Shown one piece after another: positions 4,910-59,102 of a DNA stretch of 64,000 nt. The number at the start of each line of letters is the position of its first letter. The stretch's first letter is position 1. Source of the DNA: Deltaproteobacteria bacterium (GTDB lineage Bacteria > Myxococcota > Myxococcia > Myxococcales > SZAS-1); NCBI GenBank assembly GCA_018266075.1, contig JAFEBB010000026.1, positions 1 through 64,000 of the forward strand. Reading direction: 5' to 3'. The position numbers and the translations under genes were made by a program. The notes below the pieces were generated by a model. It saw only the letters and a list, made by a program, of their open reading frames with translations, was not told the origin of the DNA and ran no database searches.

Positions 4910-4936
4910 GGCCGTCTCCGGGGAATGGGCATCCCC

Positions 4937-5022
4937 AGAGCAGCCTTCGTGCCGGTCCTGATTTCAGCTGTTTAGACGCGCTCTGTCCGCCGCGCGATCA
5001 CCGGGCGATCGCCGGGCGATCA
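4937..5022 (-). repeat. Duplicated upstream region, copy B
   Basis: Partner of 4038-4123 (about 74 of 86 positions identical, no gaps). It carries the same three GATC cores spaced 11 bp (4996, 5007, 5018). The farthest core overlaps the dusB stop codon, so the array reaches to about 90 bp upstream of the predicted transcription start, a normal distance for a sigma-54 enhancer-binding activator. Confidence 0.75.
4939..4955 (-). promoter_or_regulatory. Sigma-54-type -24/-12 promoter, copy B
   Basis: The minus strand again reads GGCACGAAGGCTGC with GG and GC ten bases apart, identical through the core to copy A. The predicted transcription start is near 4928, about 19 bases before the ATG of the C39-like peptidase gene. 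The element is intergenic between dusB and the peptidase gene. Confidence 0.6.
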
Positions 5023-6051: not shown

Positions 6052-6221
6052 CTACACGCCGCCCATCGCGTTCGCAAATGCACGATGCACTGCACTTGGC
6101 CTGCGCCTGCTGCGTTGAGCAGGGGTCGGCGAGATCGAAAAGGCATGTGGCGCCCGTCTCTCGAGGCGCGATCTCGGCCTGGTAGGCGCCCCCCAACCTC
6201 GCCTACGCGGAGCAGCGAAAC

Positions 6222-7679: not shown

Positions 7680-7740
7680 GCGTCGGTGGCAACCAGGCCG
7701 GCTCGGCAGCGACAATGGAGCGTCGCCGGGAGGGCTGCGC

Positions 7741-8784
7741 ATGCCGTCGTCGATCGAGACCGAGGCCGTCAAGTACAAGGCCTACCTCAAGAACACGCTC
7801 AAGGACGGCAAGCTCACGCAAGCCGAGGCGAATTCCATCGTCGCCGACGCGAAGAAGCCGGGCTTCACCGAGGTGAAGGCGCTGTATCTGGCAGGCTTCG
7901 TGGAGGCCAACGCCGACAAGTTCGATCCGGCCGTGCGCCGCACGCTCGAGAGCTTCCTCACCGGCGCGAACATCCAGAACACGGCGAAGATCGAGTCCGA
8001 CATCGCGCCCACGACCCCGAGCGCCACCGGCGAGCCCACGCTCGCGAAGGGCGACGGCAAGGGCATCACGTACACGAAGGCGTCGGGCTCGCTCACGGTG
8101 GGCGGCTTCGGCAGCGACGACGCGGTCCAGGGCGGCTTGGGCGACTGCTACTTCATCTCCTCGATGATGGCCGTGGCCAACGCCCACCCGGAGATCCTGC
8201 AGAAGGCGATCAAGGACAACGGCAATGGCACGTACACGGTCACGTTCTGGCAGCGCGACAACGCGGACTCGGCGCCGCGGCCGGTGAAGGTGACCGTCGA
8301 CGACAAGGTGCCTGAGTCGAAGGGCTCGCCGCAGTACGTGGGCTCGCGCAGCGGCAAAGAGCTCTGGCCGATGATCATGGAGAAGGCGTACGCGCAGTGG
8401 CACGGCGGCTACGAGGACATCCAAGGCGGCATGGGCGCGAACGCGCTCTCGGCGCTCACGGGCGCGCGGCCGGGCTTCTTCCCCGTGAACGAGGAGATGA
8501 AGGTCGACGACATCTGGAGCCAGCTCAAGAGCGCTTGTGGCAACGGCGGCTGCGTGGTCGCGGACTCCACGGGCTTCGGCCACGAGAAGGTCGCGGGCGT
8601 GGTGGGCGATCACACGTACACGGTGCTCGGCGTCGAGGAGAAGAACGGCCAGCGGCTGGTGAAGCTGCGCAACCCCTGGGGCGAGAAAGAGCCCGGCCAC
8701 GACGGCACCGACGACGGCATCTTCACCCTGCCCGTGGAGCAGTTCGTGAAGAGCTACGCGATGGTGGAGTACGTGAAGCCCTAG
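7741..8784 (+). CDS. Calpain family (C2) cysteine protease
   Basis: A 347-residue protein whose C-terminal two thirds is a calpain catalytic core. Q130-C136 is in QGGLGDCYF, H291 in GDHTYTVLGV and N311 in LRNPWGE, the full C2 triad with the classic NPWG context. Residues 1-80 form a small helical domain (KDGKLTQAEANSIVADA) resembling an EF-hand-like or linker module. Calpain domains in bacteria are often secreted or surface enzymes, but no signal peptide is present. The start at 7741 is chosen because GGGAGGG lies just upstream and an earlier ATG at 7612 would overlap the previous gene. The last 4 bp overlap the convergent maf gene. It may be functionally allied with the C39-like peptidase 3 kb away. 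Confidence 0.9.
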   Translation: MPSSIETEAVKYKAYLKNTLKDGKLTQAEANSIVADAKKPGFTEVKALYLAGFVEANADKFDPAVRRTLESFLTGANIQNTAKIESDIAPTTPSATGEPTLAKGDGKGITYTKASGSLTVGGFGSDDAVQGGLGDCYFISSMMAVANAHPEILQKAIKDNGNGTYTVTFWQRDNADSAPRPVKVTVDDKVPESKGSPQYVGSRSGKELWPMIMEKAYAQWHGGYEDIQGGMGANALSALTGARPGFFPVNEEMKVDDIWSQLKSACGNGGCVVADSTGFGHEKVAGVVGDHTYTVLGVEEKNGQRLVKLRNPWGEKEPGHDGTDDGIFTLPVEQFVKSYAMVEYVKP

Positions 8785-9398
8785 AAGAAGCGCACGCCGG
8801 CGTCCCGCAGCATGCGGACGACGAGCGTCATGGGCAGGCCGCGGACGCTGTTGAGATCGCCGTCGATCTTGGAGAAGAGCGCCATGCCGCGTTCTTCCAC
8901 GCGATAGCCGCCGGCGCAGCCTTCCCACTCGCGCGTGGCCAGGTAGCCCTCGAGCTCGTTCGGATCCAGCGCGTACATCGTGAGCGAGACGACGTCGTGC
9001 TCCACGCGCTCCAGCTTTGGTCCGAGCAGCGCCACGGCGGTGTAGAGCTGGTGCGTCTTGCCGGAGAGGCGCTGGAGCTTCTCGCGCGCGTCGTCGAGGT
9101 CGCGCGGCTTGCCCCAGATCTCGCCCTCGAAGCCGCAGACTTGATCCGACCCGATCACCAGCGCGCCCGGGTTCAGCGTCGCGACGGCCTTGGCCTTCCC
9201 CCACGCGAGCTCGTGGGAGAGGTCGATGGGGTCCTTGAGCCGGAAGTGCTCATCGAAGTCGGGCTTCTGCGCGCGATAGGGCAGGCCGAGCGCGTCCATG
9301 AGCGTGCGGCGCGCAGACGACGTGGAAGCGAGGATCAGCTCGGGCTGGGGACGTCCGTGATCGGCGCCGGCGGCTTGGGCGCTGCGGGCGGCTGCCAT
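8781..9398 (-). CDS. maf: Maf-like nucleoside triphosphate pyrophosphatase
   Basis: Cytoplasmic housecleaning enzyme that hydrolyses non-canonical or canonical nucleoside triphosphates to monophosphates, and is linked to septum control. Diagnostic motifs are LILASTSSARRTLMD near residue 21, FDEHF, the central VIGSDQV with the catalytic Asp, and GKPRDLDDAR. Length 205 aa is normal. The start codon lies 64 bp inside the upstream metallophosphoesterase gene, and no later start codon precedes the conserved block, so the long overlap appears real and suggests translational coupling. Confidence 0.92.
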   Translation of the reverse strand: MAAARSAQAAGADHGRPQPELILASTSSARRTLMDALGLPYRAQKPDFDEHFRLKDPIDLSHELAWGKAKAVATLNPGALVIGSDQVCGFEGEIWGKPRDLDDAREKLQRLSGKTHQLYTAVALLGPKLERVEHDVVSLTMYALDPNELEGYLATREWEGCAGGYRVEERGMALFSKIDGDLNSVRGLPMTLVVRMLRDAGVRFF

Positions 9399-41031: not shown

Positions 41032-42788
41032 AGTTGAGATATGTCGCGATATGTCTGATTCTCGCGGTGCCGCTCCGGGCCCGCGCGGACACGCTCTACT
41101 GGCTGGGCGCCAAGCTCCCCAACGGCGCGACCTACCCCGACGGCGGCGGCGACCCCATGCAGTACTGGGTCGACGAGACCCAAGGCACACCTGGCGGCCT
41201 CCCGGTGGCCACGATCGAGCAGCAGACCATCGCCAGCTACGGCCTCTGGCAGGCGGTGGACTGCGCGTACATCGGCTTCAGCTTCCAGGGCGCGATCACG
41301 GATCCGAGCCAGCTCGGCCAGCACGACGACCGCAAGAACGTGATGGACGGCTTCGTGAACAGCTACACCGACCCGCGCTACGCCGACGACCTCGGCGACG
41401 GCATCGCGGTCGGCGTGGCGCTCACCTACAAGCAGAACGGCATCATTCTCGGCTGCGACACCGAGTTCAACGCGCAGGACTACACCTACTCCGACGGCAT
41501 CCCGGCGACCGGAGAGGACTTCCTCTCGCTCGCGAACCACGAGAACGGCCACTGCCTCGGGCTCGATCACGACCCGAACGACTTCAACAGCGTGATGTAC
41601 CCGACCGAGGTGGTGGGCGACCTGCGCCGCACGCTGGATCCGCACGACATCGATAACGTGTGCCAGCTCTATCCGGAGACCGGCTCCATCGGCTCGCCGT
41701 GCTCGGGCTCGAGCTGCGGCGGCTCGCTTTCGTGCATCCAGGATCCGATCAACGGCGGCAACTTCTGCTCGCACAGCTGCGACGCGTCGAACCCGAGCAC
41801 GTGCGAGGCGGGCTTCGGTTGCCGCGCGTCGCAGGCGATCGCGGGCGCGAGCGCGGCGTGCTTCCCCGGCGACGGCGACTTCTCGCCCAACATCGGCGAC
41901 CCGTGCGGCGCGGACACCGACTGCCACGGCGCCAACGCGATGTGCATCACCGGCTGGTCGGGCGGCTACTGCAGCCAGTACTGCGACTCGTCGACGTGCC
42001 CCACGGGAGATGTCTGCGCGCAGCTCGACGCGCAGCACTTCTATTGCACCTCGGCGTGCACCACCTACGCGGGCGGCTGCCGCGCGGGCTACGCCTGCTT
42101 CGGCTACGACACCGGCGGCGACGGCTTCTGCATCCCCGCCTGCGCGCAAGACGCCGACTGCGGCGGCACCGATCTCTGCCTCGCCGACGGCATCTGCTAC
42201 CCGCCCGGCAACGCCGGCAGCTACGTGGGCCACGCGTGCCTCTCGAGCACCGACTGCCCCACCGGCGATTTCTGCATCCCCGCGTCGGACTCGAGCGGCC
42301 ACAGCACCGGCTGGCCCGGCGGCTACTGCGCGGCCCCGTGCGGCGCCGGCCAGGACGCGAACCGCCCCTGCGGCGCGGGCGCGACGTGCGTGATCGCCGG
42401 CGCCGAGGGCCAGGCCTACTGCCTCCAGAACTGTGACGCCCAGGGCGGCTGCCGCCAGGGCTACACCTGCGTGGTCAAGCCCGACGCGAGCCACACCGAG
42501 CAGCAAGTCTGCGCGCCAGGCTGCGCGTCCGACAGCGATTGCGCCGTGGGCGAGCGCTGCACCGGCGGCGCCTGCGTGGATCCGAACGGCGGCAGCACCG
42601 GGAGCTGCACGCTCTGCGGCGACGGCGGCATCACCCAGACCACCACCGGCAGCGGCAGCACCGGCTCCAGCTCGCCGCCTCCGGCCACGCCGTCCGGCTG
42701 CGGTTGCGGCGCCGGTGGATCCGTGGATCTCATGGCTCTCGGCGTGCTGATGTGCTTGCTCGGCGCGCGTCGGAGACGGGCATGGTGA
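41028..42788 (+). CDS. Matrixin-like metalloprotease with MYXO-CTERM-like tail
   Basis: A 586-residue secreted zinc protease. Signal peptide residues 1-20 are followed by the catalytic domain to about 220, with HENGHCLGLDH at 171-181 (HExxHxxGxxH) and the Met-turn SVMYPT shortly after. Residues 225-545 are a Cys-rich region of repeated CxxDxDCxxG-type modules. A Gly/Ser/Thr linker leads to the C-terminus GCGCGAGG, a hydrophobic helix and a short Arg-rich end, the MYXO-CTERM sorting layout. The protein should be processed by a myxosortase and anchored on the surface. The GTG start overlaps the stop of the small secreted gene. A paired GATATGTC motif begins 10 bp into the gene. Confidence 0.9.
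   Translation: MKLRYVAICLILAVPLRARADTLYWLGAKLPNGATYPDGGGDPMQYWVDETQGTPGGLPVATIEQQTIASYGLWQAVDCAYIGFSFQGAITDPSQLGQHDDRKNVMDGFVNSYTDPRYADDLGDGIAVGVALTYKQNGIILGCDTEFNAQDYTYSDGIPATGEDFLSLANHENGHCLGLDHDPNDFNSVMYPTEVVGDLRRTLDPHDIDNVCQLYPETGSIGSPCSGSSCGGSLSCIQDPINGGNFCSHSCDASNPSTCEAGFGCRASQAIAGASAACFPGDGDFSPNIGDPCGADTDCHGANAMCITGWSGGYCSQYCDSSTCPTGDVCAQLDAQHFYCTSACTTYAGGCRAGYACFGYDTGGDGFCIPACAQDADCGGTDLCLADGICYPPGNAGSYVGHACLSSTDCPTGDFCIPASDSSGHSTGWPGGYCAAPCGAGQDANRPCGAGATCVIAGAEGQAYCLQNCDAQGGCRQGYTCVVKPDASHTEQQVCAPGCASDSDCAVGERCTGGACVDPNGGSTGSCTLCGDGGITQTTTGSGSTGSSSPPPATPSGCGCGAGGSVDLMALGVLMCLLGARRRRAW
41038..41055. promoter_or_regulatory. GATATGTC paired motif, site 1
   Basis: Direct repeat GATATGTC-GC-GATATGTC located 10 bp inside the start of the matrixin-like gene. 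The same 8-mer pair occurs at 53796 (direct, spacer GA) and 52149 (inverted, spacer TC). See findings. Confidence 0.4.
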
Positions 42789-44619: not shown

Positions 44620-45777
44620 GTGAGAATTGCCGCCATCGTCTTTGCGCTGTCGCTCGTTGCCTGCGGCCCGCTCGACGAAACCGCCAGCCCGAACGACACG
44701 GTCACGGCGACCGCGCCCATCATCAACGGGCACACGGACACGACCGACACCAACGTCGCCTCGCTCCTGGTCGGCTATCCCGACGGCTCCGGCTACCTCT
44801 GCTCGGGCTCCATCATCGGCCCCTACACGTTCCTCACCGCGGGCCACTGCACCAACAAGTTCAATCCGCTCACCGACGTCGGCTTCATCGTGCTGAACAA
44901 CAACTCCGATCGCGGCCTCCAGGACGCCTTCTACCCGGATGGCGGCTTCAACTCGATCGACGGCGGCGCGGTGGAGGTGCGGTTCCTCATCGCCAACCCG
45001 GACTTCCGGCAGCAGACCGGCAACCAGGACTGGAACGACATCGGGCTGGGCTTCACCAGTCAGCCCATGCCCGGGCCGTACCTTCCGCTGAACCGCTACC
45101 CGCTCGATCGGCTGCCGCTCTACGGCGCGCCGGTGACGGAGGTGGGCTTTGGCGAGACCTCGCCCGACGGCGGCGGCGTGGGCACGCGGCGCGAGGTGAC
45201 CAAGTACGACGTGAAGGTGCGCTCGGCGGGCGAGCTCACCTCGGGCGCGCAGGCCGGCCTCACCTGCGAGGGCGACTCGGGCGGCCCTGCGCTGTTCAAG
45301 ACGCCCGACGGCTTGATGTCGGTCATCGGCACCACCTCGCGCGGCGATCAGCAGTGCGCGCAGTCGGGCATCGACACCCGCGTGGACGCGTACCTCGACT
45401 TCATCCGCATCAACATGGTCGACGCCGGCGATCCGCCGAGCTGCGGCGCCGACGGCCGCTGCGGCTTCAACTGCACCGCGCCGGATCCGGACTGCCCCTG
45501 CGCCCCCGACGGCTTCTGCACCAGCGCCTGCACCACGCCCGAGGCCGATCCGGACTGCCCCCAGAGCTGCCTCTACAACGGCGGCTCGTGCGCCGTGCAG
45601 CAGGGCACCACCACCGGCTCCACGGGCTCCCCGTCGGCGGCCGATGCCGGCTCGAAGAAGGGCGGCGGCTGCAGCACCGCCAGCGGATCCGACCTGATCT
45701 GGCCGCTCGCGCTCGTCTTCGGCGCGGTGGCGCTCAGCCGGTCACGCCGATGGACAGGTGGCTCGCGCCGCCGGTGA
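44620..45777 (+). CDS. Trypsin-like serine protease lipoprotein with MYXO-CTERM-like tail
   Basis: A 385-residue exported protease. Lipobox VAC is at residues 13-15. The chymotrypsin fold carries H76 (LTAGHC), D140 (NDIGLG) and S220 (CEGDSGGP), so the triad is complete. IINGHTD at 34-40 is the activation-peptide end, suggesting a zymogen. Residues 270-345 are a Cys-rich stretch, followed by a Gly/Ser/Thr linker and KKGGGC, a hydrophobic helix and an Arg-rich end, as in MYXO-CTERM proteins. The lipobox and sorting tail together are odd: either the protein is anchored twice or one signal is inactive. The GTG start follows a GATCCGGATC sequence. The 3' end overlaps the convergent MarR-fusion gene by 44 bp. 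Confidence 0.88.
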   Translation: MRIAAIVFALSLVACGPLDETASPNDTVTATAPIINGHTDTTDTNVASLLVGYPDGSGYLCSGSIIGPYTFLTAGHCTNKFNPLTDVGFIVLNNNSDRGLQDAFYPDGGFNSIDGGAVEVRFLIANPDFRQQTGNQDWNDIGLGFTSQPMPGPYLPLNRYPLDRLPLYGAPVTEVGFGETSPDGGGVGTRREVTKYDVKVRSAGELTSGAQAGLTCEGDSGGPALFKTPDGLMSVIGTTSRGDQQCAQSGIDTRVDAYLDFIRINMVDAGDPPSCGADGRCGFNCTAPDPDCPCAPDGFCTSACTTPEADPDCPQSCLYNGGSCAVQQGTTTGSTGSPSAADAGSKKGGGCSTASGSDLIWPLALVFGAVALSRSRRWTGGSRRR

Positions 45778-46831
45778 GCTCGAGCTCGTAGCGGTCGGTT
45801 GCGCTCTCGAAGCCGCTGGAGCTCAAGCGGGTGACGCCGCCCACGGCGCCGAGGTGCTGGTCGTCGAAGCTGATGTGGCTGGCGCCGCCGTGCACCTGGA
45901 TGCGCATGGCCGAGCCCTTGGGGCGGGTGAGCTGCAGGTGGCTGGCGCCGCCGGTGATGCGCACCTGCACCACGCCGTGCGGCGCGGGCAGCGCGATCTC
46001 CACCGCGCTTGCGCCCCCGCGGACGTTGAGTGACGTGAGCCGCAAGTCCTCCAGCGCCGCGCGCACCTTGCTGATGCCGCCGGTGAGCTCGATGTCCCAG
46101 GGGACGGCCGAGTTGAGGTCCACCTCGGCGGCGACCTTGCGGAAGTCGAGGAACGCGAACATCGGGTAGCTCATGTGCACCGTGCCGCCGGAGACGGTGA
46201 TCTCCGGCCGACGCCCGGTGAAGCGCGCCTGGTAGAGATGGTCGTTGTCCGCGCCGCCGCCGAGGGTGAGCCGCGAGGCGCCCGAGGTGAGCCGGAACAC
46301 GCCGCGCTTGGCGTCGCCGATGGGGGCCGAGTCGGGGCCTTCGCTCGAGCTGGCCGGAGCGCCGTCCTGGCGCAGGCGCGTGGTCTCCGCGGCCATGATC
46401 GCCGCGGCCCGGGTCACGAACTCCACCACCAGCTCGAGCTGCGCCTCGTCGTAGCCCGCGGTGACCTCTTTCATCGCCTGCCGCAGCGGCTCCAGGAGCT
46501 CGTGAATCCGTGGCGCCGGCTCCTGCAGCGACTCCACGAGCACGTGCCGCCGATCGCCGGGATCCTTCAAGCGCCGCAGCCAGCCCGCCTTCTCCAACCG
46601 ATCGAGGACGCCGGTCACCGCGCCGGTGGTGAGCCCGGTGAGCTCCGCCAGGCGGCCCGCAGGCATGGGCCCGTTGCCCGCAAGCAGGCTCGAGGCCTTG
46701 AAGTCGGTGAGGCTCACCCCGAGGCGATCTGCGAGGGCCTGGCTGTAGAGGACGTCGCGGTCCGAGAGGGCCCGCATGGCCCCCATCAGCTTCAGCAGGA
46801 GCTCGGCTCTTTGGCGAGAAGCGGTTGACAT
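45734..46831 (-). CDS. MarR-family regulator fused to a toastrack-like domain
   Basis: A 365-residue protein. Residues 1-150 form a MarR winged helix (SLTDFKASSLLAGNGPMPAGRLAELTG, then TTGAVTGVLDRLEKAGWLRRLKDPGDRRHVLV). Residues 180-365 form repeated Gly/Ala/Ser-containing beta strands, with the motif GGASxLxL/I recurring (LTSGASRLTLGG, VRGGASAVEI, ITGGASHLQL, VHGGASHISF, LTGGASHLSI). This is like the DUF4097/LiaF-type toastrack beta-helix domain. MarR proteins rarely carry such a domain, which may sense an envelope ligand or multimerise. It is divergent from the ABC operon across operator-like palindromes, so it probably regulates that operon and itself. The 3' end overlaps the serine protease gene. 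Confidence 0.85.
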   Translation of the reverse strand: MSTASRQRAELLLKLMGAMRALSDRDVLYSQALADRLGVSLTDFKASSLLAGNGPMPAGRLAELTGLTTGAVTGVLDRLEKAGWLRRLKDPGDRRHVLVESLQEPAPRIHELLEPLRQAMKEVTAGYDEAQLELVVEFVTRAAAIMAAETTRLRQDGAPASSSEGPDSAPIGDAKRGVFRLTSGASRLTLGGGADNDHLYQARFTGRRPEITVSGGTVHMSYPMFAFLDFRKVAAEVDLNSAVPWDIELTGGISKVRAALEDLRLTSLNVRGGASAVEIALPAPHGVVQVRITGGASHLQLTRPKGSAMRIQVHGGASHISFDDQHLGAVGGVTRLSSSGFESATDRYELELTGGASHLSIGVTG

Positions 46832-46860: not shown

Positions 46861-46875
46861 TCTTAGTTGCTAAGA
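46861..46875. promoter_or_regulatory. MarR operator-like palindrome
   Basis: TCTTAGTTGCTAAGA is a perfect inverted repeat (six-base arms, three-base centre) located 30 bp upstream of the MarR-fusion start and about 194 bp upstream of the ABC gene. The position and symmetry suit autoregulation by the MarR-type dimer. Confidence 0.6.
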
Positions 46876-47068: not shown

Positions 47069-47794
47069 ATGGCGTCCATCGTCTCGCTGCGAAACGTGGT
47101 CAAGGACTACTACCTGGGCAAGGTGGTGGTTCACGCGCTCCGCGACATCAGCCTCGATGTGGAGCAGGGCGAGTTCCTCTCCATCGCGGGGCCTTCGGGC
47201 TCGGGCAAGACCACGCTGCTCAACCTCATCGGCTGCGTGGACACGCCCACCGGCGGCGTGGTGACGGTGAACGGCCAGGACACCTCGAAGCTCACCGAGC
47301 GCCAGCTCACCGATCTCCGGCTGCACAGCCTGGGCTTCATCTTCCAGAGCTTCAACCTGGTGACCGTGCTCTCCGTGTTCCAGAACGTGGAGTTCCCGCT
47401 GCTGCTCCAGGGTGGCCTCTCCGCCGGCGAGCGAAAGCAGCGCGTGGAGGCGTTGCTCGGGCAGGTGGGCCTCTCCGACCAGATCCACAAGCGCCCCAAC
47501 GAGCTCTCCGGCGGTCAGCGCCAGCGCGTGGCCGTGGCGCGCGCGCTGGTGACCCGGCCCAAGATCGTGCTCGCCGACGAGCCCACCGCGAACCTCGACT
47601 CCACCACCGGCCAGAACATCATCGACCTGATGAAGGAGCTGAACCGCAAAGAGGGCACCACCTTCATCTTCTCCACCCACGACCCGAAGGTGATGTCGCA
47701 CGCCAGCGCGGTGGTGCGCGTGGCCGACGGCCAGCTCGCCGAGGGCGGCAAGACGTCGGGGACCGCCGCCGCTGCTGCCGCCGGTGCGCACTAG
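47069..47794 (+). CDS. ABC transporter ATP-binding protein (MacB/LolD type)
   Basis: A 241-residue ATPase with Walker A GPSGSGKTT (residues 41-49), signature LSGGQRQRVAVARAL, Walker B VLADEPTANLD and H-loop STHDP. The sequence belongs to the group that energises FtsX-fold permeases (LolD, MacB, FtsE). It is the first gene of the operon with two permeases 10 and 3 bp apart. The ATG at 47069 gives MASIVSLRNVVKDYYLGK. The upstream region carries MarR-type operators, so expression is likely repressed by the divergent regulator. Confidence 0.95.
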   Translation: MASIVSLRNVVKDYYLGKVVVHALRDISLDVEQGEFLSIAGPSGSGKTTLLNLIGCVDTPTGGVVTVNGQDTSKLTERQLTDLRLHSLGFIFQSFNLVTVLSVFQNVEFPLLLQGGLSAGERKQRVEALLGQVGLSDQIHKRPNELSGGQRQRVAVARALVTRPKIVLADEPTANLDSTTGQNIIDLMKELNRKEGTTFIFSTHDPKVMSHASAVVRVADGQLAEGGKTSGTAAAAAAGAH

Positions 47795-47803
47795 GAGCCA
47801 CCC

Positions 47804-50011
47804 ATGAAAGTGCTCTTCATGCTCCTCGGCGGGATCGCCGGGCTGGCGGCGGTCGCCGCGCTGCTCACGGTGATCATCTTCTCCGCGTACATGTTCTGGC
47901 AGGTGGCCTGGAACACGGTCAGCCGCCCCGCGCAGCTGCCGATCGTCATTCGCATCGCCTTCCGCAACCTCTTCGCCAGCAAGCTCAAGACCATCATCAT
48001 CGGCAGCATCATCGGCGGCGGCGCGGTGCTCATCGTGGTGGGCACCTCGTTCATCGGCTCGATGTCGGACGGCATGAGCCGCTCGGTCATCGGCGCGGCG
48101 GCCGGTGACGCGCAGCTCTACCAGCCCAAGTACGGCGACGGCGGCGGCGACGAGCTCGCCATCTGGGGCGGCGGCATGTCCGAGCCCGAGCTCGGCGTGA
48201 TCCCCGACTTCGACAAGCTGCAGAGCGCGATCTCCAAGGTGGACAACGTGAAGGCCGTGGTGCCCATGGGCATCGCCGGCGCGATGGTCACCTCGGGCAA
48301 CACCATCGATCTGGCGCTCGGCGACCTGCGCGAGGCCGAGAACAAGAAGAAGGCCGGCGACGCCAGCGTGCAGGGCCGCATCGACGCGCAGAAGGCGCAC
48401 ATCCGCCACATCATCGACGTGCTCAAGGGCGACCAGAAGAACCGCGCCGAGGTCTCCAGCGAGACGCGCGGCACCACGCAGGAAGAGGTCGACGCGGTGA
48501 ACACCGCCTCCGACGACAAGTTCTGGAACGACTTCGAGTCGGATCCGTTCGGCAAGCTCGAGTACCTGGAGAACAAGATCGCGCCCCAGGCCGCCGACGC
48601 CGATCTGCTCTACCTCCGCTACATCGGCACCGACCTGGAGCAGTTCACCAAGTCGTTCGACCGCATGGAGATCGTGGATGGCACCGCGGTGCCCAAGGGC
48701 CAGCGCGGCTTCCTGATGGCGAAGAACTTCTACGAAAACATGGTGAAGCTGAAGAGCGCGCACCGGCTCGACACCATCAAGGACGCCATCGAGATCAAGA
48801 AGCAGAAGATCTCCGAGCAGGAAGACCTGCAGCGCCTGGTGAAGGAGAACACCACCCAGACGCGCGAGATCGCGCTCCAGCTCGACGACTTGAAGGCCAA
48901 GGAGATGATCGCCCGGCTGCGAAAGGCCACGGGCTCGCAGGAGACGCAGCTGGAGAAGCTGCTCTCGATCTTCTTCGACACCAACGACGCGAACTTCATG
49001 CAGCGCTACGACGCCTTCTACAAGGACCTCGCGCCGCTGCTGGAGCTGTACCGCATCCGCGTGGGCGACACGCTCACCATCAAGGCGTACACCAAGAGCG
49101 GCTACCCGAAGAGCGTGAACCTCAAGGTCTACGGAACGTTCCAGTTCAACGGCCTGGAGAAGAGCGCGCTGGCCGGCTCACTCAGCCTGATGGACCTCTC
49201 CAGCTTCCGCGATCTCTACGGCTTCATGACCGCCGCCAACATCGCCGAGTCGAAGGCGATCCAGGCGCAGTCGGGCATGAAGGTCGTCGACCGCGCCCAC
49301 GCCGAGGAAGATCTCTTCGGCGGCGGTGACGCGGCGGCCGAGGCTCCGGACGCGGGTGCTCCCAAGGTCGTCGAGGCCGTGGCCAAGGCGGATCCCACCG
49401 CCGCGGCCGACGCGCCCTCGGGCCGCGCGATCCTCAACGCCGCCATCTTCTTCAAAGATCCTTCGAAGACCCGGACGACCTTGCCGCTGCTGGAGAAGGC
49501 CGCGAGCGACGCCGGCATCCGCGTGAAGGCCGTGTCCTGGCAGGACGCCTCGGGCTTCATCGGCAAGCTGGTGCTCTTGTTCTGGGCGGTGTTCGCCTTC
49601 GCGGCGCTCTTCATCGGCTTCGTGGCCGCGCTGGTGGTCTGCACCGCGCTGCTCACCGCGACGCTCGAGCGCGTGCGCGAGTTCGGCACCCTGCGGGCCA
49701 TCGGCGCGCAGAAGCCGCTCATCCTCAGCACCGTGGTGGTGGAGGCGATGGTGATGGGCATCGTCTTCGGCGGACTGGGCGCCATCCTCGGGGCGATCAT
49801 CGTCACCGCGGTGCACAGCCACGGCATCGCCGCCTCGGCCGACATCATGTACTTCCTCTTCTCGGGCCCGCGCTTCACGCCGGTGCTCAGCGTGCCGAGC
49901 ATGGTCTTCGCCGTGTTCGCCATGTTCATCATCAGCGGGTTCGCCAGCCTCATCCCGGCGTTCCTGGCCATGCGCGTCTCGCCGGTTCGCGCCATGCAGG
50001 CGGAGGACTGA
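47804..50011 (+). CDS. FtsX-fold ABC permease, large
   Basis: A 735-residue membrane protein with hydrophobic segments near residues 5-35 and 60-85 and a C-terminal bundle of three helices (about 585-730) of the FtsX/MacB permease family. The large periplasmic loop between (about 90-580) is charged and contains a predicted coiled-coil-like stretch (320-400). The C-terminal FtsX motif TLERVREFGTLRAIGAQKPLIL is clear. It is longer than LolC/E (about 400) because of the loop. It pairs with the smaller permease gene immediately downstream, giving a heterodimer. Substrate unknown; envelope lipid or lipoprotein handling is inferred from the LolA-like neighbour. Confidence 0.9.
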   Translation: MKVLFMLLGGIAGLAAVAALLTVIIFSAYMFWQVAWNTVSRPAQLPIVIRIAFRNLFASKLKTIIIGSIIGGGAVLIVVGTSFIGSMSDGMSRSVIGAAAGDAQLYQPKYGDGGGDELAIWGGGMSEPELGVIPDFDKLQSAISKVDNVKAVVPMGIAGAMVTSGNTIDLALGDLREAENKKKAGDASVQGRIDAQKAHIRHIIDVLKGDQKNRAEVSSETRGTTQEEVDAVNTASDDKFWNDFESDPFGKLEYLENKIAPQAADADLLYLRYIGTDLEQFTKSFDRMEIVDGTAVPKGQRGFLMAKNFYENMVKLKSAHRLDTIKDAIEIKKQKISEQEDLQRLVKENTTQTREIALQLDDLKAKEMIARLRKATGSQETQLEKLLSIFFDTNDANFMQRYDAFYKDLAPLLELYRIRVGDTLTIKAYTKSGYPKSVNLKVYGTFQFNGLEKSALAGSLSLMDLSSFRDLYGFMTAANIAESKAIQAQSGMKVVDRAHAEEDLFGGGDAAAEAPDAGAPKVVEAVAKADPTAAADAPSGRAILNAAIFFKDPSKTRTTLPLLEKAASDAGIRVKAVSWQDASGFIGKLVLLFWAVFAFAALFIGFVAALVVCTALLTATLERVREFGTLRAIGAQKPLILSTVVVEAMVMGIVFGGLGAILGAIIVTAVHSHGIAASADIMYFLFSGPRFTPVLSVPSMVFAVFAMFIISGFASLIPAFLAMRVSPVRAMQAED

Positions 50012-50013
50012 CC

Positions 50014-51327
50014 GTGAACGACTTCCTCACCGACGTACAGATTGGCGGCCGCAACCTTCGCCAGCACTGGCTCCGCTCGGCGCTGCTCGGCGTGGGCCTG
50101 ATGTTCGTGACCCTGCTGGTGACGACGCTGTGGGGCACGCTCACCAGCATGCGCGAGTCGATGCTCAAGAGCGCCACCACCTTGATGAGCGGCCACGTGA
50201 ACGTGGGCGGCTTCTTCAAGGTCACCGCGGGCCAGAGCGGCCCGCTGGTCACGCACTACCAGGACGTGGTGAAGGCGGTTCAGACCGCCATCCCCGAGGA
50301 CCTGGACTACACCGCCGTGCGCGGTCGCGGCTGGGCCAAGCTCATCTCCGACACCGCGTCGATGCAGACCGGCGTGGGCGGCATCGACATCGACAAGGAG
50401 CCGGGCTTCAAGAAGGTGATCCAGGTCGAGAGCGGCAAGCTCGAGGATCTGGCGCAGCCCAACTCCATCCTCATCTTCCACGACCAGGCCGAGAAGCTGG
50501 GCGTGAAGGTGGGCGACGCGCTGACGTTCTCTGCGCCCACCAACCGCGGCGTGAACAACACCGTGGACGTGCACGTGGTGGCCATCGCCGAGAACGTGGG
50601 CCTGCTCTCGGGCTTCAACACCTACGTGCCCTCGGGGACCCTGCGGAAGCTCTACGACCTGCGCGACGACGCTGCGGGCGTCATCTACGTCTATTTGAAA
50701 GACGTGAAGCGCGCGCCGGAGGTGGCCGCGCGCCTGCGCAACGCCCTCGAGAAGGACGGCTACCGGGTGATGGATCCGGATCCCCGCGCGTTCTGGCAGA
50801 AGTTCGAGGTGGTGAACCGCGAGGACTGGACCGGTCAGAAGCTCGACGTCACCACCTGGGACGAAGAGGTGAGCTTCCTCAACTGGATCCTCACCGGCTT
50901 CGGCTTCATCTCCGGCCTGCTCAGCTTCGTGCTGCTGGTGATCGTGCTCGTCGGCGTGGGCAACATCATGTGGATCGCGGTGCGCGAGCGCACCCGCGAG
51001 GTGGGCACGCTGCGCGCCATCGGCATGCAGCGCGGCCGCGTGCTGCGGATGTTCCTCACCGAGGCGGTGGTGCTGGGCTTCGCCTCCGGCGCTGCCGGCG
51101 GGCTACTCGGGCTGCTGGTGGCCGCGGGCGTGAACCAGGCCCAGGTGACGCTGCCGCCCTTCGCCCGGCTCTTCCTGCTCAACGACCACCTGGAGCTGGC
51201 CATGCGCGTGGGCCCGGTGGTGGCGATCGTGGCCTTCATCACCGCGCTGACCACGGTGGCCTCGGCCTATCCCGCCTACCGCGCCGCCAAGCTCACGCCA
51301 GTCACGGCCATGGGCCACGCGGGCTAA
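50014..51327 (+). CDS. FtsX-fold ABC permease, small (LolE/MacB-like)
   Basis: A 437-residue permease with one N-terminal helix (about 18-45), a periplasmic domain and three C-terminal helices (about 290-430). The family motif is present: RERTREVGTLRAIGMQRGRVLRMF. The GTG start at 50014 follows the preceding stop by 2 bp. It is shorter than its partner and closer in size to LolC/LolE. The two different permeases and one ATPase resemble the LolCDE arrangement, but the lipoprotein-sorting identity is not proven. Confidence 0.9.
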   Translation: MNDFLTDVQIGGRNLRQHWLRSALLGVGLMFVTLLVTTLWGTLTSMRESMLKSATTLMSGHVNVGGFFKVTAGQSGPLVTHYQDVVKAVQTAIPEDLDYTAVRGRGWAKLISDTASMQTGVGGIDIDKEPGFKKVIQVESGKLEDLAQPNSILIFHDQAEKLGVKVGDALTFSAPTNRGVNNTVDVHVVAIAENVGLLSGFNTYVPSGTLRKLYDLRDDAAGVIYVYLKDVKRAPEVAARLRNALEKDGYRVMDPDPRAFWQKFEVVNREDWTGQKLDVTTWDEEVSFLNWILTGFGFISGLLSFVLLVIVLVGVGNIMWIAVRERTREVGTLRAIGMQRGRVLRMFLTEAVVLGFASGAAGGLLGLLVAAGVNQAQVTLPPFARLFLLNDHLELAMRVGPVVAIVAFITALTTVASAYPAYRAAKLTPVTAMGHAG

Positions 51328-51360
51328 CCATACATCCTTGTTAATGAACTGGAGGGTTTC

Positions 51361-52131
51361 ATGCGGAACCTGATCTTCGCCCTGGTGCTCTGCACCGCCG
51401 CGCCTGCGCTGGCCGCGCCGCTCGACGATGCGGCCATGCTCAATCTCTTGAAGGACATCGACCACCGGCAGGCCGAGAACGGCGACTACCGGAGCACGGT
51501 CTTCATCATCCAGAAGGAGACCGACAAGCCCGACGTGGCCCAGCAAGCGGTGGTCTACCGCCGCGAAGAGGGCCAGAAGCTGATGATCACCTTCGAGCAG
51601 CCCAAGGAGATGACCGGCCAGGGCTACCTGCGCATCGAGCACAACCTCTGGTTCTACGACCCGAGCGTGGGCAAGTGGGAGCGCCGCACCGAGCGCGAGA
51701 AGATCGGCGGCACCAACTCCCGGCGCGAGGACTTCGACGAGAGCAAGCTCGCCGAGGAGTACACCCCCTCGTTCGTGGGCGAGGAGCAGGTGGGCAAGTA
51801 CAAGGCCTGGCACGTGAAGCTGTCGGCCAAGCCCAATATCGACGTGGCCTTCCCGGTGGTGGAGCTCTGGGTGGACGAGGCCACCGGCAACATCCTCAAG
51901 CGCTACGAGTACGCGCTCTCCGGCCGCCTCATGCGCCGCCTGCTCTACCCCTCCTGGGACAAGCTCTACTCCGACAGCAAGAAGGGCGACGTCTGGTTCC
52001 CCAAGCAGATCTTCATCTTCGACGAGGTGGAGAAGGCCAACCAGACCCAGATCACCATCAAGGACGTGGACCTCCACCCGCTGGAGGCCAACCTCTTCAC
52101 CAAGGCGTACCTGGAGTCGAAGAGCCGCTAG
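51361..52131 (+). CDS. LolA-like outer membrane lipoprotein-sorting family protein
   Basis: A 256-residue periplasmic protein with signal peptide MRNLIFALVLCTAAPALA. The fold is the convex barrel-like LolA/LolB type (strand pattern YRSTVFIIQKET, KLMITFEQPKEMTGQGYLRIEHNLWFYDP, VGKYKAWHVKLSAKPN), and the proteins are annotated in many genomes as outer membrane lipoprotein-sorting proteins. It should carry a lipid-like cargo through the periplasm. GGAGG lies seven bases before the ATG. It follows the permease genes after 33 bp and precedes the barrel-like gene, forming a complete inner-membrane to outer-membrane line-up. Confidence 0.88.
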   Translation: MRNLIFALVLCTAAPALAAPLDDAAMLNLLKDIDHRQAENGDYRSTVFIIQKETDKPDVAQQAVVYRREEGQKLMITFEQPKEMTGQGYLRIEHNLWFYDPSVGKWERRTEREKIGGTNSRREDFDESKLAEEYTPSFVGEEQVGKYKAWHVKLSAKPNIDVAFPVVELWVDEATGNILKRYEYALSGRLMRRLLYPSWDKLYSDSKKGDVWFPKQIFIFDEVEKANQTQITIKDVDLHPLEANLFTKAYLESKSR

Positions 52132-52148
52132 CCGGCCGCTCCAATCTG

Positions 52149-52166
52149 GATATGTCTCGACATATC
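52149..52166. promoter_or_regulatory. GATATGTC paired motif, site 2 (palindrome)
   Basis: GATATGTCTCGACATATC consists of two perfectly inverted 8-base arms around TC. It lies in the 66-bp gap between the LolA-like and barrel-like genes. A hairpin would have a two-base loop, so a dimeric protein-binding site is likelier than an RNA stem. Confidence 0.45.
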
Positions 52167-52197
52167 TAGATACTTCAGCGGGGTCTGGGAGGGTGTG

Positions 52198-53796
52198 ATG
52201 CGCTGGACACTGCTCGTCCTGGCGGGGCTGGCCCTGCCGGCTGTGGCGCAGGCTCAGGTCGACGAGAACGCGCTCTTTGGCGGCGCCCCGGCGCCGGTTG
52301 CGGTCGACGCCGGCGGAGCGCCGCCGGTCACCACCACCGGCAACACCGACGCCGGCCTGCCGGTGATGAGCCCCGACGAGAAGCAGCTCTTCGACCAGCC
52401 CAACGGCCAGGTCGGCAATGCAGCGCCACCCGACGCCGGTCCGCCCGCGCCACCGCAGAACCCGGAGCAGGCCGGCGAGAGCGCGGCCTTTGGTGGGCCG
52501 GGCCAGGTGCTGCCCACCGCGCGCGAGGTGGCGCCCTCCAACCCGCTCACCATTGGCGGCACGCTCTTTCTGCGCGCGCAGCTCACCGGCTATCAGGACC
52601 AGCCGCCCAAGAGCTGGGGCTGGGACGAGCCCAACTTGATGGACGTGTACCTCGATGCACGGCCCAACTCGCGCGTGCGCGCGCTGGCGGTGGGCCGGCT
52701 CACCTACGACCCCGCAGTGGATCCGAACGCCATCTCCTTCGGCGGCACCAAGCAGAACCAGGTGAACACCTACCTGGATCAGCTCTGGATCAACTTCGAC
52801 ATCCTCCGCGAGGTCTTCGTCACCGCGGGCAAGCAGCACGTGAAGTGGGGCACCGGCCACATCTGGAACCCCACCGACTTCCTGCAGCCCGTGAAGCTCA
52901 ACCCCCTCGACATCATCGACCAGCGCACCGGCGTGACGCTCGTGAAGGCGCACGTGCCCTGGGAGTCGCGGGGGTGGAACTTCTACGGCTTCGGCGTCTT
53001 CGAGGGGCCGCAGGTGGTGAACACGCTGAGCCAGGTGGGCGGCGCGCTGCGGGCGCAAGTGGTGCTCGGCGATGCCGAGCTCAGCTTCTCGGGCCTCTTT
53101 CAGCACGGCCGCAAGCCGCGGCTCGGCGCCGACATCTCCACCGGGCTGGGTCCTTTTGACGTGTACGCGGAGGCTGGCTTCCACGGCGCGGAGCAGTCGC
53201 AGCTCGTCGCCGGCCTCGGCGGCAACGACGGGCAGCTCTGTGTCTCCCCGTCGAGCCTGGGCTTGACCGGCACCGATCTCCCTCGGTGCGTGCTCTTGCC
53301 CTACAGCTACCAGACGCAGACCGGGATCCTGCCCCAGGTGAGCGCCGGCGGGACCTGGCAGGTGAACCTGAACGACCGCGACGCGCTCACCGTCGGCCTG
53401 GAAGGCTTCTACAACCAGGCCGGCACCAACGACGCGACGACGTACCCGGTGCTGGTGCTCACGGGCAACTTCGTGCCGTTCTACGTGGGCAAGTGGTACG
53501 GCGCGGTCTACGGGACGGCGTCGATGCCGCGCGGCACGGTGGTGCACAGCCTGAGCACCACCACGCTGGGCAACCTCTCCGACGAGAGCTTCGTCAGCCG
53601 GCTCGACTACAACGTCACCATCCTCACCCACCTCGGCCTCGACCTGTACGGCGACGTCCACTACGGCACCCAGGGCGGCGAGTTCCGCTTCGGCATCAAC
53701 ACCACCGCGGTCCCCACGGGCACCGGCCAGATCCAGCAGGTCCGGGTGCCCACGCCGACGTTCGACGCGGGCGTTTCCTTGCGCGTTTCGATGTAG
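52198..53796 (+). CDS. Outer-membrane beta-barrel-like protein, unknown family
   Basis: A 532-residue exported protein with signal peptide MRWTLLVLAGLALPAVAQAQ. Residues 30-115 are Pro/Ala/Gly-rich and disordered-looking. The remaining 400 residues show alternating hydrophobic strands (TIGGTLFLRAQLTGYQDQPP, LFLNAKL-like patterns) typical of an outer-membrane porin-like barrel. The ATG at 52198 (GGGAGG five bases upstream) is preferred over the GTG one codon earlier. It lacks TonB-dependent receptor or OmpA domains. In this operon it is the likely outer-membrane partner of the ABC/LolA-like line. Confidence 0.78.
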   Translation: MRWTLLVLAGLALPAVAQAQVDENALFGGAPAPVAVDAGGAPPVTTTGNTDAGLPVMSPDEKQLFDQPNGQVGNAAPPDAGPPAPPQNPEQAGESAAFGGPGQVLPTAREVAPSNPLTIGGTLFLRAQLTGYQDQPPKSWGWDEPNLMDVYLDARPNSRVRALAVGRLTYDPAVDPNAISFGGTKQNQVNTYLDQLWINFDILREVFVTAGKQHVKWGTGHIWNPTDFLQPVKLNPLDIIDQRTGVTLVKAHVPWESRGWNFYGFGVFEGPQVVNTLSQVGGALRAQVVLGDAELSFSGLFQHGRKPRLGADISTGLGPFDVYAEAGFHGAEQSQLVAGLGGNDGQLCVSPSSLGLTGTDLPRCVLLPYSYQTQTGILPQVSAGGTWQVNLNDRDALTVGLEGFYNQAGTNDATTYPVLVLTGNFVPFYVGKWYGAVYGTASMPRGTVVHSLSTTTLGNLSDESFVSRLDYNVTILTHLGLDLYGDVHYGTQGGEFRFGINTTAVPTGTGQIQQVRVPTPTFDAGVSLRVSM

Positions 53797-53813
53797 ATAT
53801 GTCGAGATATGTC
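53796..53813. promoter_or_regulatory. GATATGTC paired motif, site 3
   Basis: Direct repeat GATATGTC-GA-GATATGTC that begins on the last base of the barrel gene stop codon and includes the ATG of the CapA-like gene (53799-53801). Confidence 0.4.
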
Positions 53814-54710
53814 TTGTTCGGGTTGCTGCTCCTGGGTTGCGCGCACGCGACGCCGGCGCCGGTGGCCGCGCCCGAGACGCCCGCGCGGCTCTGGTTCGGC
53901 GGCGACGTGAACCTGGGCCCGGGCGGGAACCACGCGCTCGATGGCCTGGCCCCGTCGACGCGTGACCTGGGCGTGGGCGTGGTGAACCTCGAAGGGCCCG
54001 TCGCGTCGCAGCTGCCTTCGGGGCCGGGGCTCAAGCTCTGGAACGCGCCGAGTGCGCTGGCTGAGCTCGCCCCGCTGGGCGTGCGCGCGGTGGGGATTGC
54101 CAACAACCACGCGGCCGACAGCGGATCCGACGGCTCCGAGAAGACCGCCTCGTCCGTTCGCGCGGCAGGCTTCGCGCCGTTTGGTGGACCGGCTGGCCCC
54201 ACGGTGCTGACGCTCGGCGGGCATCGGGTCGTGCTCAGCGCGCACGACCTGGAGCATGGCGTGCCTGCCCACCTGGCCGACGAGCTTCGTGCCGCGCGCG
54301 CGCAGGGCGATACGCTCATCGCCACATTTCACGTCACGGGGCCCGAGAGCTACTTGCCGCGGCCGGAGCTGAAGCAGGCAGTGAACATCGCGCTCGCCGC
54401 GGGGGCGCGCGTGGTGATCTCGCACGGGAGCCACGCCATCGGTCCGCTCGAGCGGCGCGGCGATGCGGTGATCGTCTGGGGCCTGGGCAATGTGTGCTTC
54501 GCGTGCGATTGCACCCAGGAGAGCGACGCCATCCTGGTGGCGCTCGATCTCGCCGCCTCGCCCATCGGCGTGCAGGTGCTGCCCATCGACGCCGGGCTGC
54601 GCTCCGGGCCGGCGCGGCCGTCGAAGGACCCGTCGGGGATCTTCGATCTGCTCGAGGCCGTGGGCACGCCCAAGCTCACGCGCGCCGGCGCCCGCGCCAG
54701 CCTGCCCTGA
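53799..54710 (+). CDS. CapA/PGA_cap-like lipoprotein
   Basis: A 303-residue lipoprotein (lipobox LLLGC at 11-15) with the metallophosphatase-like CapA fold: FGGDVNLG, VVNLEGP, GIANNHAADSG and VVISHGSHAIG contain the expected Asp/Asn/His positions. CapA-family proteins are tied to poly-gamma-glutamate or capsule assembly and hydrolysis. A stand-alone envelope-anchored copy is common in Gram-negatives. It starts two bases after the barrel gene stop, so it belongs to the same operon. Its function in a transport line is unknown, possibly cargo trimming. The first 15 bp contain the paired GATATGTC motif. Confidence 0.85.
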   Translation: MSRYVLFGLLLLGCAHATPAPVAAPETPARLWFGGDVNLGPGGNHALDGLAPSTRDLGVGVVNLEGPVASQLPSGPGLKLWNAPSALAELAPLGVRAVGIANNHAADSGSDGSEKTASSVRAAGFAPFGGPAGPTVLTLGGHRVVLSAHDLEHGVPAHLADELRAARAQGDTLIATFHVTGPESYLPRPELKQAVNIALAAGARVVISHGSHAIGPLERRGDAVIVWGLGNVCFACDCTQESDAILVALDLAASPIGVQVLPIDAGLRSGPARPSKDPSGIFDLLEAVGTPKLTRAGARASLP

Positions 54711-56369: not shown

Positions 56370-56582
56370 GACCCCTCCGTGCAGCGGAACCTTCAATAGA
56401 ACGCACGGCCGGCCCGGGAGTTCCCTGATCCAGATTGTCGAAAAATCCATGGGCGTGGCGGCGAGCGGCGCACGGTTTCCAACGTTGCGTCGGGGCTGAC
56501 TTTTCGCGCGAGATTCGCCTTGTTTGCCCCACCCCCATCACCTAGTGTGCGCCGCCCTGCGGCACGACCCTCGCCCTCGCTG

Positions 56583-59102
56583 ATGCGCCTGCCCGCCCTT
56601 GCCTTTGCTGTCGCCGTGGCGCTCGCCGCCACCGGCGTGGCGCGCGCGCAGACGCCCCCGGGCGGGGGCGCGCTGTCACCTGGAAACCTGAGCGCGCCCG
56701 GCCTGCCCGGCCAGCAGCCGCCGGCGGCGCCGAGCGAGCCGTCTGCGCCGCCGCCTCCCGCAGAGCAGGTGCCCACCGCCAGCGAGCCCGCCGCGCCCAC
56801 CGGCCCGGTGATCTCGGCCATCGACATCGAGGGCAACCGGCGCGTCGAGCCAGATGCCATCCGCAACGCGCTGGCCAGCAAGGTCGGCTCGACGATGGAG
56901 CGCTCGAAGATCACCGCCGACGTGCACGCGCTCTTCGCGCTGGGCTACTTCGAGGACATCTCCGTCGACGCGCAGCCGGCGGGGCCCAACCAGATCAAGC
57001 TGGTGGTGAAGGTGGCGGAGAAGCCCGCCATTCGCGATGTGCGCATCACCGGCAACGACGAGCTCTCCACCGACGACATCCGCGATCTCGTCGACATCCG
57101 CACCGCGCAGATCCTCGACCTGGACGCGGTCCACCGGAACGCGAAGAAGATCCAGGACAAGTACGTGGAGAAGGGCTTCTACCTGGCGGAGATCACGCCC
57201 AAGGTGGTGCCCCAGCCCGACAACACCGTCTCGGTGGTCTTCGCCATCAACGAGCACGCCAAGGTGCAGGTGAAGAGCATCACCTTCGTGGGCAACGAGA
57301 AGGTGCCCAGCGCCGACCTGCGCTCGGTGATGGAGACGCAGGAAGGCAACATCCTCAGCTTCCTCACCAGCGCCGGCACCTACCGCGAAGAGGTCTTCCA
57401 GCGCGACCTCTCGCTCATCCAGTTCGCCTACTACGACCGCGGCTTCATCAACGTGCGCGTGGGCAAGCCGCAGGTGGAGATCACCCCGGACAAGAAGTAC
57501 CTGTTCCTCACCGTGCCCATCACCGAGGGCGAGCAGTTCAACGTCGGCAAGATCGACTACTCCGGCGACATCCTCGGCACCAAGGAGACGCTGGGCACGC
57601 GCGTGCACACCGAGTCGGGCGCGCTCTTCAACCGCAGCCAGCTCCAGGCCGACATCAGCGGGCTCAACGACCTCTACCTCGACCAGGGCTACTGCTACGT
57701 CAACATCAGCCCGCTCACCAACGTCAACAACGACACCCGCATCGTGGACCTCACCTTCGACGTGCAGAAGGGGCCCAAGTGCTACGTCGAGCGCATCGAC
57801 ATCGTGGGCAACCACAAGACCCGCGACCGCGTGATCCGCCGCGAGCTGCGCATCTATGAAGGCGAGCTCTTCACCGGCACGGGCATGAAGCAGTCGAAGG
57901 GCCGCGTGAACGCGCTGGGCTTCTTCGAGACGGTCGAAGTGACGCAGAAGAAGGGCAGCCGCGACGACAGCGTGATCGTCGAGGTCAGCGTGAAGGAGAA
58001 GCCGACCGGCACGTTCCAGGTGGGCTTCGGCTTCTCGAGCGTGGAGTCGTTCATCTTCACGGCCACGCTGCAGCAGAACAACCTGCTCGGCTGGGGCCAG
58101 ACGGCGTCGCTCTCGGCGCAGATCTCCAGCCTGCGAAGCCTGGTCCAGCTCTCGTATCTGGATCCGTACTTCCTGGATACGAACTGGATCTTCTCGTTCG
58201 ACTACTTCCGCATCGACGCCGACTACTACGGCTTCTTGCGCAGCTCGAACGGCGGCGACGTCAACTTCGGGTACCACCTCACGCCGGATCTGCTCTTGTT
58301 CCTGGCCTACGGCCTGGAGCACGTGGACGTTGAGCCGAGCTCGCTCTCGGCGGCGCCGGGGAGCGTGGGCTCGGTGTACAGCGCGTTCTCGAGCACGCCG
58401 CCCATCGCCAACCAGTTCCAGTCGGGGCTCAACTCGACGGTCACCCTCACGCTCACCTACGACAAGCGCGACAACCGGCTCTTCCCGAGCAACGGCTACT
58501 ACGGCTCGGGCTCGGTGCAGTACGGCCCCAAGCAGCTCGGCGGCACCTTCAACTTCATCCGCTACTCGGCGAACGGCCGCTACTACCGGCCGCTCTTCCT
58601 GGGCATCGTGTTCAAGACCAACGCCACGTTGGGCTACGTCGAGGGCATCCAGGGCAGCACGGTGCCCATCTCCGAGCTGTACTACGTGGGCGGCATCAAC
58701 TCGGTCCGCGGCTACTACCTGCGCACCATCACGCCCACCAAGGCCGTGGGCGCCACCGCCAACCCGGATACCTCGCTCACCCACTACCCGGAGTTCCCGG
58801 TGGGCGGCGACAAGCAGCTCGTCTTCAACTTCGAGCTCGAGTTCCCCATCATCGAAAAGATCGGCATCCGCGGCGTGGTCTTCGCCGACGCGGGCAACGC
58901 CTACGCGCCCAACGAGAACTTCTTCCAGGACAAGCACAGCCTGGTGTCCACGCCGGCGGGGCTCTTGTACTCGGTGGGCGTGGGCGTGCGCTGGTTCTCG
59001 CCCATCGGCCCCCTGCGCTTCGAGTGGGGCTTCCCGCTCACCCCGCGCCCGGGCATCGACCAGCCGGTGGACTTCGAGTTCACCATCGGCAACTTCTTCT
59101 GA
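56583..59102 (+). CDS. bamA: Outer membrane protein assembly factor BamA
   Basis: An 839-residue essential outer-membrane insertase. Signal peptide MRLPALAFAVAVALAATGVARAQ is followed by a Pro-rich spacer. Five POTRA domains span about 75-485 (ISAIDIEGNRRVEPDAIRN, DVRITGNDELSTDDI, VKSITFVGNEKV, IDYSGDILGT, RIDIVGNHKTRDRVIRREL). The 16-strand barrel follows, with VRGY at about 708-711 and a C-terminal aromatic (FTIGNFF). ATG 56583 is preferred; a GTG at 56547 would extend it by 12 residues. It leads the lipid A/outer-membrane biogenesis cluster on the plus strand. Confidence 0.96.
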   Translation: MRLPALAFAVAVALAATGVARAQTPPGGGALSPGNLSAPGLPGQQPPAAPSEPSAPPPPAEQVPTASEPAAPTGPVISAIDIEGNRRVEPDAIRNALASKVGSTMERSKITADVHALFALGYFEDISVDAQPAGPNQIKLVVKVAEKPAIRDVRITGNDELSTDDIRDLVDIRTAQILDLDAVHRNAKKIQDKYVEKGFYLAEITPKVVPQPDNTVSVVFAINEHAKVQVKSITFVGNEKVPSADLRSVMETQEGNILSFLTSAGTYREEVFQRDLSLIQFAYYDRGFINVRVGKPQVEITPDKKYLFLTVPITEGEQFNVGKIDYSGDILGTKETLGTRVHTESGALFNRSQLQADISGLNDLYLDQGYCYVNISPLTNVNNDTRIVDLTFDVQKGPKCYVERIDIVGNHKTRDRVIRRELRIYEGELFTGTGMKQSKGRVNALGFFETVEVTQKKGSRDDSVIVEVSVKEKPTGTFQVGFGFSSVESFIFTATLQQNNLLGWGQTASLSAQISSLRSLVQLSYLDPYFLDTNWIFSFDYFRIDADYYGFLRSSNGGDVNFGYHLTPDLLLFLAYGLEHVDVEPSSLSAAPGSVGSVYSAFSSTPPIANQFQSGLNSTVTLTLTYDKRDNRLFPSNGYYGSGSVQYGPKQLGGTFNFIRYSANGRYYRPLFLGIVFKTNATLGYVEGIQGSTVPISELYYVGGINSVRGYYLRTITPTKAVGATANPDTSLTHYPEFPVGGDKQLVFNFELEFPIIEKIGIRGVVFADAGNAYAPNENFFQDKHSLVSTPAGLLYSVGVGVRWFSPIGPLRFEWGFPLTPRPGIDQPVDFEFTIGNFF

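Follow-up and report, generated by a model that had tools for sequence, protein, structure and literature searches.

A conserved five-gene LolCDE-like cassette in Myxococcota with a motif common to its large permease and its beta-barrel

The locus described here holds a conserved system of five genes, which encode an ABC ATPase, a large FtsX permease (perm1), a second FtsX permease (perm2), a LolA-like periplasmic carrier and an outer-membrane beta-barrel. A short motif, [DE]xx[L/M/I/V/F]FG, was revealed by alignments in both perm1 and the barrel, which are two unrelated proteins. This motif and a related perm1 branch linked to NRPS/PKS genes are the most informative facts on the cassette, and both were absent from the initial annotation. 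We give about an even chance to the reading that the five genes constitute an export line of the LolCDE type, whose cargo would be an amphiphilic molecule resembling a lipid or lipopeptide and whose carrier would dock via the shared peptide. Hereafter, the window is the whole stretch of 64,000 nucleotides that was analysed.

Gene organisation and protein families

In the window sequence, six open reading frames follow each other on the + strand with gaps of 9, 2, 33, 63 and 2 bp, preceded by a divergent regulator gene and a palindrome:

45734..46831, - strand: MarR-family regulator, divergent (PF01047, 6e-14), with a C-terminal GGASxLxL-repeat (possible toastrack) domain
46861..46875, no strand: TCTTAGTTGCTAAGA, perfectly palindromic, within the divergent promoter region and from its position only a candidate MarR operator
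47069..47794, + strand: ABC ATPase, LolD/MacB-like (241 aa; PF00005 ABC_tran, 3.2e-34)
47804..50011, + strand: large FtsX permease, perm1 (735 aa; Pfam FtsX, 1.3e-9)
50014..51327, + strand: second FtsX permease, perm2 (437 aa; Pfam FtsX, 3.6e-19)
51361..52131, + strand: LolA-like periplasmic carrier (256 aa; signal peptide; PF17131 LolA_like, 3.5e-35)
52195..53796 (alternative start 52198), + strand: outer-membrane beta-barrel (533 aa; relatives at the same place)
53799..54710, + strand: CapA/PGA_cap-type lipoprotein (PF09587 PGA_cap, 1.6e-25)

The six genes in the same direction, their short gaps and the families assigned to them in the initial annotation were confirmed by the open reading frames and by Pfam and structure models. 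The closest NCBIfam model to the ATPase is LolD (236 bits, under its cut-off of 307.75), and the protein is 66-77% identical to the copies of relatives; its PADLOC matches were dismissed as generic ATPase matches. The LolA-like carrier scores 121.8 bits against PF17131, above the Pfam gathering cut-off of 30, and has 3buu as a PDB relative (4e-24 by family profile). The N-terminus of the CapA protein, MSRYVLFGLLLLGC, is a lipobox.

The unusual periplasmic arm of the large permease, previously put at roughly 490 residues, is real: about 484 residues lie between the transmembrane segments at about 60-100 and 585-622, and the model (mean pLDDT 82.9) folds them into long helices, with a disordered periplasmic segment at residues 506-539. 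The best solved-structure matches of perm1 in Foldseek are LolE/LolC (E 4.5e-12), followed by MacB. The window copy has an extra N-terminal hydrophobic helix that is absent in relatives. LolCDE, MacB and other Type VII ABC/FtsX permeases work outward, and by analogy the direction of transport in the cassette is probably outward too.

The barrel model, which is of moderate quality (mean pLDDT 70, pTM 0.69), is a beta-barrel whose nearest structural matches are AlgE and other porins. About the first 116 residues are disordered in the model, and the disordered N-terminal segment itself measures about 95 residues. The protein matches no Pfam or NCBIfam family. Membership in DUF1302 was rejected, as the PF06980 search gave no match at E<=1 in the window barrel or in 17 relatives; within the genome only the barrel at the C3 locus matches this family.

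Conservation and genomic context

The order ABC-perm1-perm2-LolA-barrel is found in most of the fetched cassettes, from many families of the order, and the scan of genome contigs revealed the same five-gene order in Bdellovibrionota, with Bdellovibrionales, Bacteriovorax, Silvanigrellales and Oligoflexus, and in two gammaproteobacterial MAGs. Among 60 relatives, a perm1 match was found in 37 (the weakest reaching over the FtsX part only) and the barrel in 34. At the level of the phylum, perm1 is present in 121 of 195 genomes and in 52 of 90 genera, and at least one family of the order lacks it in every genome listed. The permease and barrel genes are nearly always accompanied by one for a LolA-fold protein. 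The initial annotation had joined a LolCDE-type extractor and a LolA-fold carrier in one unit with the barrel, and in relatives they do form one conserved set, whose five genes are not scattered.

The co-occurrence of all six genes was sustained only in part, since the five genes stay together in relatives but CapA does not. Only one other cassette, at a Bdellovibrio locus (L148), has a CapA-like gene after that of the barrel, and CapA as a component of the line, together with the polymer cargo that it had suggested, was consequently rejected. The CapA gene is at most cotranscribed with the cassette and is not a conserved component of it.

No conserved flanking gene names the cargo, the recurrent neighbours being only lineage-specific genes and MarR-type regulators. 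A diverged perm1 branch and one further locus (L070) are located inside NRPS/PKS clusters with condensation, AMP-binding, thioesterase and ketoreductase domains, a setting that hints at an amphiphilic, metabolite-like cargo. Genes of this type were not found in the searched flanks of the other cassettes, the window's included. The branch thus points to amphiphilic metabolites as one class of cargo, and does not identify the cargo of the window.

As for regulation, the proposed control by a MarR-toastrack fusion was upheld to a certain extent. The divergent MarR gene is real and such regulators are recurrent, but they adjoin the ATPase in only 21 of the 79 cassettes with enough upstream DNA. 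Several architectures are seen, in which the regulator gene either comes first in the same orientation or is divergent, with the GGASxLxL-repeat domain as a fusion; the latter, found in the window, is also present at loci L064, L069 and L079. The toastrack label of the C-terminal domain is plausible but unproven: Pfam does not support it in the protein of the window, and one of four aligned members matches LiaF-like_C with E=0.2. No description of a MarR-toastrack fusion was found in the open-access papers searched.

The motif shared by perm1 and the barrel

In the window, the two occurrences of the motif are placed as follows:

49304..49327, + strand: EEDLFGGG in perm1, residues 501-508 (alignment and model), at the edge of the disordered segment 506-539
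52264..52284, + strand: ENALFGG in the barrel, residues 24-30 (alignments), after the signal peptide

The perm1 copy stands in the context ...RAHAEEDLFGGGD..., in the periplasm, and the barrel copy in the context ...QVDENALFGGAP..., just past the signal peptide. The motif is present in 77 of 82 perm1 proteins (0.74 expected from shuffled linkers) and in 35 of 41 non-redundant barrels (0.28 expected in the same way), and several of the non-carriers are, when the sequences are read, trimming artefacts or one-letter variants. Barrels contain one to four copies on their disordered N-terminus, and their linker has a median length of 70 residues. The other three parts (ATPase, perm2 and LolA-like protein) lack the motif in all relatives tested.

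At the hand-checked loci with both proteins, a canonical or one-letter-degenerate motif occurs in both or in neither. In Bdellovibrionales, perm1 has only a shifted variant, IExLF, and the barrel has no motif; as this group is one clade, nested among motif-bearing clades, the co-loss counts as one event. In the diverged branch (Myxococcus, Archangium) perm1 also lacks the motif. The barrel of this branch is encoded about 20 kb away, and the copy that was read (L089) is likewise without it. Four carrier positions are changed in both motif-lacking groups, no more than a chance overlap (about three expected), which lends no direct support to binding of the motif by the carrier.

It was also considered whether the motif could be a general signal of exported proteins, and this was rejected on the few pattern matches in the own genome and five others. 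The pattern counts are low, with no general excess beyond part of the count of one genome (G033), where 21 matches were found versus 7 in the control and part of the 21 were inspected; in a genome with no perm1 match (G054) the count equals that of the reversed-pattern control. Among the inspected matches, those in exported disordered segments are perm1 and the barrel, plus one secreted tail in genome G022, and those outside the cassette are mostly in the wrong frame or in folded proteins.

Proposed export line and alternative explanations

According to the proposed mechanism, the ATPase dimer would power the perm1/perm2 pair, which would pull the cargo from the inner membrane; the LolA-like protein would hold the acyl part of the cargo in its cavity, and the AlgE/porin-like barrel would be the outer-membrane acceptor or exit. 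The carrier would recognise both the donor (perm1) and the acceptor (barrel) via the same peptide, [DE]xx(L/M/I/V/F)FG. With somewhat less confidence than in the line as a whole, we propose that this peptide may be a periplasmic address tag, by which one motif on extractor and barrel would recruit a single LolA-fold shuttle at the start and at the end of its route. The papers found describe no such docking logic of one tag at both ends for Lol, Mla or RND/DUF1329 systems.

Direct bridging between barrel and permease is a fair rival to carrier docking, to which we assign a low probability. The barrel motif would dock on the permease pair, with the LolA-like protein working inside a trans-envelope complex and not as a free shuttle, and the motif of perm1 itself would compete for the site from within and block it as long as the barrel is absent. 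The motif lies on exactly the two membrane-bound parts and is missing from the carrier, barrels often have several copies of it, and their linker, if extended, could span much of the periplasm, all of which is in favour of bridging. However, the near-constant presence of the LolA-fold gene with those of the permeases and the barrel argues against it, as does the Lol system, in which LolA is recruited through a hook and a pad of the permease and receives the cargo at the expense of ATP (PMC10094684).

Returning to the export line for an amphiphilic cargo, its kinship with Lol raises the question of lipoproteins. It is improbable that the cassette is a second Lol pathway, in which a subset of lipoproteins would be handed by the barrel to the outer membrane or the cell surface, even though all its transport parts are LolCDE/LolA-like, no LolB (PF03550) was found in the genome and Borrelia BBJ23-29 has been the subject of a comparable proposal (PMC13078400). 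The genome already contains a separate LolC/E (at C23; TIGR02212 E=5.5e-69), adjoined by a LolD-like ATPase, as well as a separate true LolA (PF03548, at C19, 2.7e-22). In addition, the related perm1 branch sits in NRPS/PKS clusters, and small hydrophobic compounds are what comparable LolA-fold/barrel systems with RND pumps handle (PMC6394551). Because of the separate LolC/E-LolD pair and LolA, the cassette was also rejected as the housekeeping Lol pathway, the role that it would have had in a genome lacking any other Lol system. The barrel in place of LolB, previously taken as a clue to a different cargo, deserves no special weight, since this genome has no PF03550 LolB at all.

A retrograde or uptake line, or one for lipid homeostasis of the envelope, in which the barrel would be the entrance, is the least probable of the alternatives and very unlikely: the barrel fold is porin/AlgE-like, and growth of P. 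putida on Tween 20 involves DUF1302/DUF1329 genes (PMC10866462), but the fold match of perm1 is to Type VII ABC/FtsX permeases, which work outward.

Comparison with known systems

No description of the cassette itself was found in the open-access papers searched. Its parts are of known kinds, whereas these papers showed neither their combination nor the long-armed permease, the model-less barrel family or the shared docking-type motif. The conserved peptide on both stations bears on two questions common to most LolA-fold proteins, namely how lipid-like cargo crosses the periplasm and how a carrier tells its loading from its unloading station, and makes them testable. Besides, Myxococcota, in which the cassette is widespread, are a major source of natural products, and in view of the related branch in NRPS/PKS clusters it may export such compounds.

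LolCDE-LolA-LolB has in common with the cassette the ATPase, the two FtsX permeases and the LolA-fold carrier, and the perm1 fold is closest to LolE/LolC (type VII ABC). In contrast, the cassette has the arm of about 484 residues, a barrel partner and the LFG motif, and the genome has separate Lol genes. The cassette permeases score 85 (perm2 against TIGR02212 lolCE, under the cut-off) and 35 bits versus the curated 362 bits of lolCE, under which the genome's own LolC/E at C23 also falls. MacAB-TolC differs in its MacA-type adaptor, of which none is among the cassette parts; a MacA-MacB-like set is present elsewhere in the genome, at C5.

Borrelia BBJ23-29 (PMC13078400) also clusters a MacB/LolE-type ABC transporter, a LolA-like protein and an outer-membrane barrel, but its barrel is Omp85-type, its permease is homodimeric and TPR proteins are present. 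Within the same genome, another cassette (C107, locus L013) has the same set of parts, arranged as LolA_like-FtsX-FtsX-ABC-probable barrel; it differs in gene order, is weakly similar to perm1/perm2 and shows no LFG motif in the translated proteins. The genome encodes three PF17131 proteins, each near a barrel: that of C3 is near the DUF1302 barrel, that of C107 is accompanied by the two permeases, the ATPase and the probable barrel, which has no Pfam match, and the third belongs to the window cassette. Therefore, LolA-fold carrier and barrel are a recurring pair.

The same pair is found in AmeABCD of Castellaniella (RND HAE3, DUF1329 and DUF1302), which matters for monoterpene tolerance (PMC6394551), and in a proposed system of P. 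putida (PP_0765/0766/2018/2019), whose DUF1329 LolA-fold protein is predicted to contact both a DUF1302 barrel and an efflux transporter (PMC10866462). In both, as in the cassette, an inner-membrane pump, a LolA-fold periplasmic protein and a barrel constitute one unit. Their pump is an RND pump or efflux transporter, while that of the cassette is ABC/FtsX and its barrel has no DUF1302 match; no LFG motif is reported for them in the passages of the two papers that were consulted. The best reading is that the cassette is the ABC counterpart of the RND/LolA-fold/DUF1302 exporters represented by AmeABCD and P. putida PP_0765/0766.

Palindromic sites and neighbouring genes

A pattern search of the window's genome for the palindrome GATATGTC-NN-GACATATC (or GATATGTC repeats), with two mismatches or fewer allowed, revealed 13 sites, against none for the reversed pattern used as control. 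Three of the 13 fall inside the window, and two of these flank the gene of the outer-membrane β-barrel; the palindrome looks like a candidate operator for some regulator.

Window features:
41038-41055, palindrome (pattern search)
52149-52166, palindrome (pattern search)
53796-53813, palindrome (pattern search)
56520-59102, bamA (672-bit match to the model for outer membrane protein assembly factor BamA)

The bamA gene is located 1.8 kb downstream of the cassette, and a gene coding for a YARHG-domain protein lies between them on the opposite strand.

The large permease and related sets

The large FtsX permease carries around 40 additional N-terminal residues (window 47804-47920), which add one more hydrophobic helix that is present in none of the aligned relatives. 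Related to the LFG motif shared by this permease and the barrel, in genome G022 (locus L212) the motif is found in the disordered tail of a secreted protein of 236 residues, whose C-terminal end is DDDDLFGDQ; this protein is a possible third partner in that genome.

Translations read by eye indicate one more set in locus L196 (contig C36 of genome G010, 3752-9302), composed of two permeases, a LolA-like protein, a barrel and an ATPase. It adjoins a TetR-like gene as well as apparent ketoacyl synthase, Rieske oxygenase and acyl-CoA ligase genes, and it could possibly be involved in lipid or polyketide export.

Diverged sets of both permeases and the LolA-like carrier, lacking the LFG motif, are enclosed by NRPS/PKS clusters in loci L189 (5449-16983, genome G033) and L176 (Myxococcus xanthus AM003). 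In G033 the barrel of this set is around 20 kb distant and has an additional N-terminal domain.
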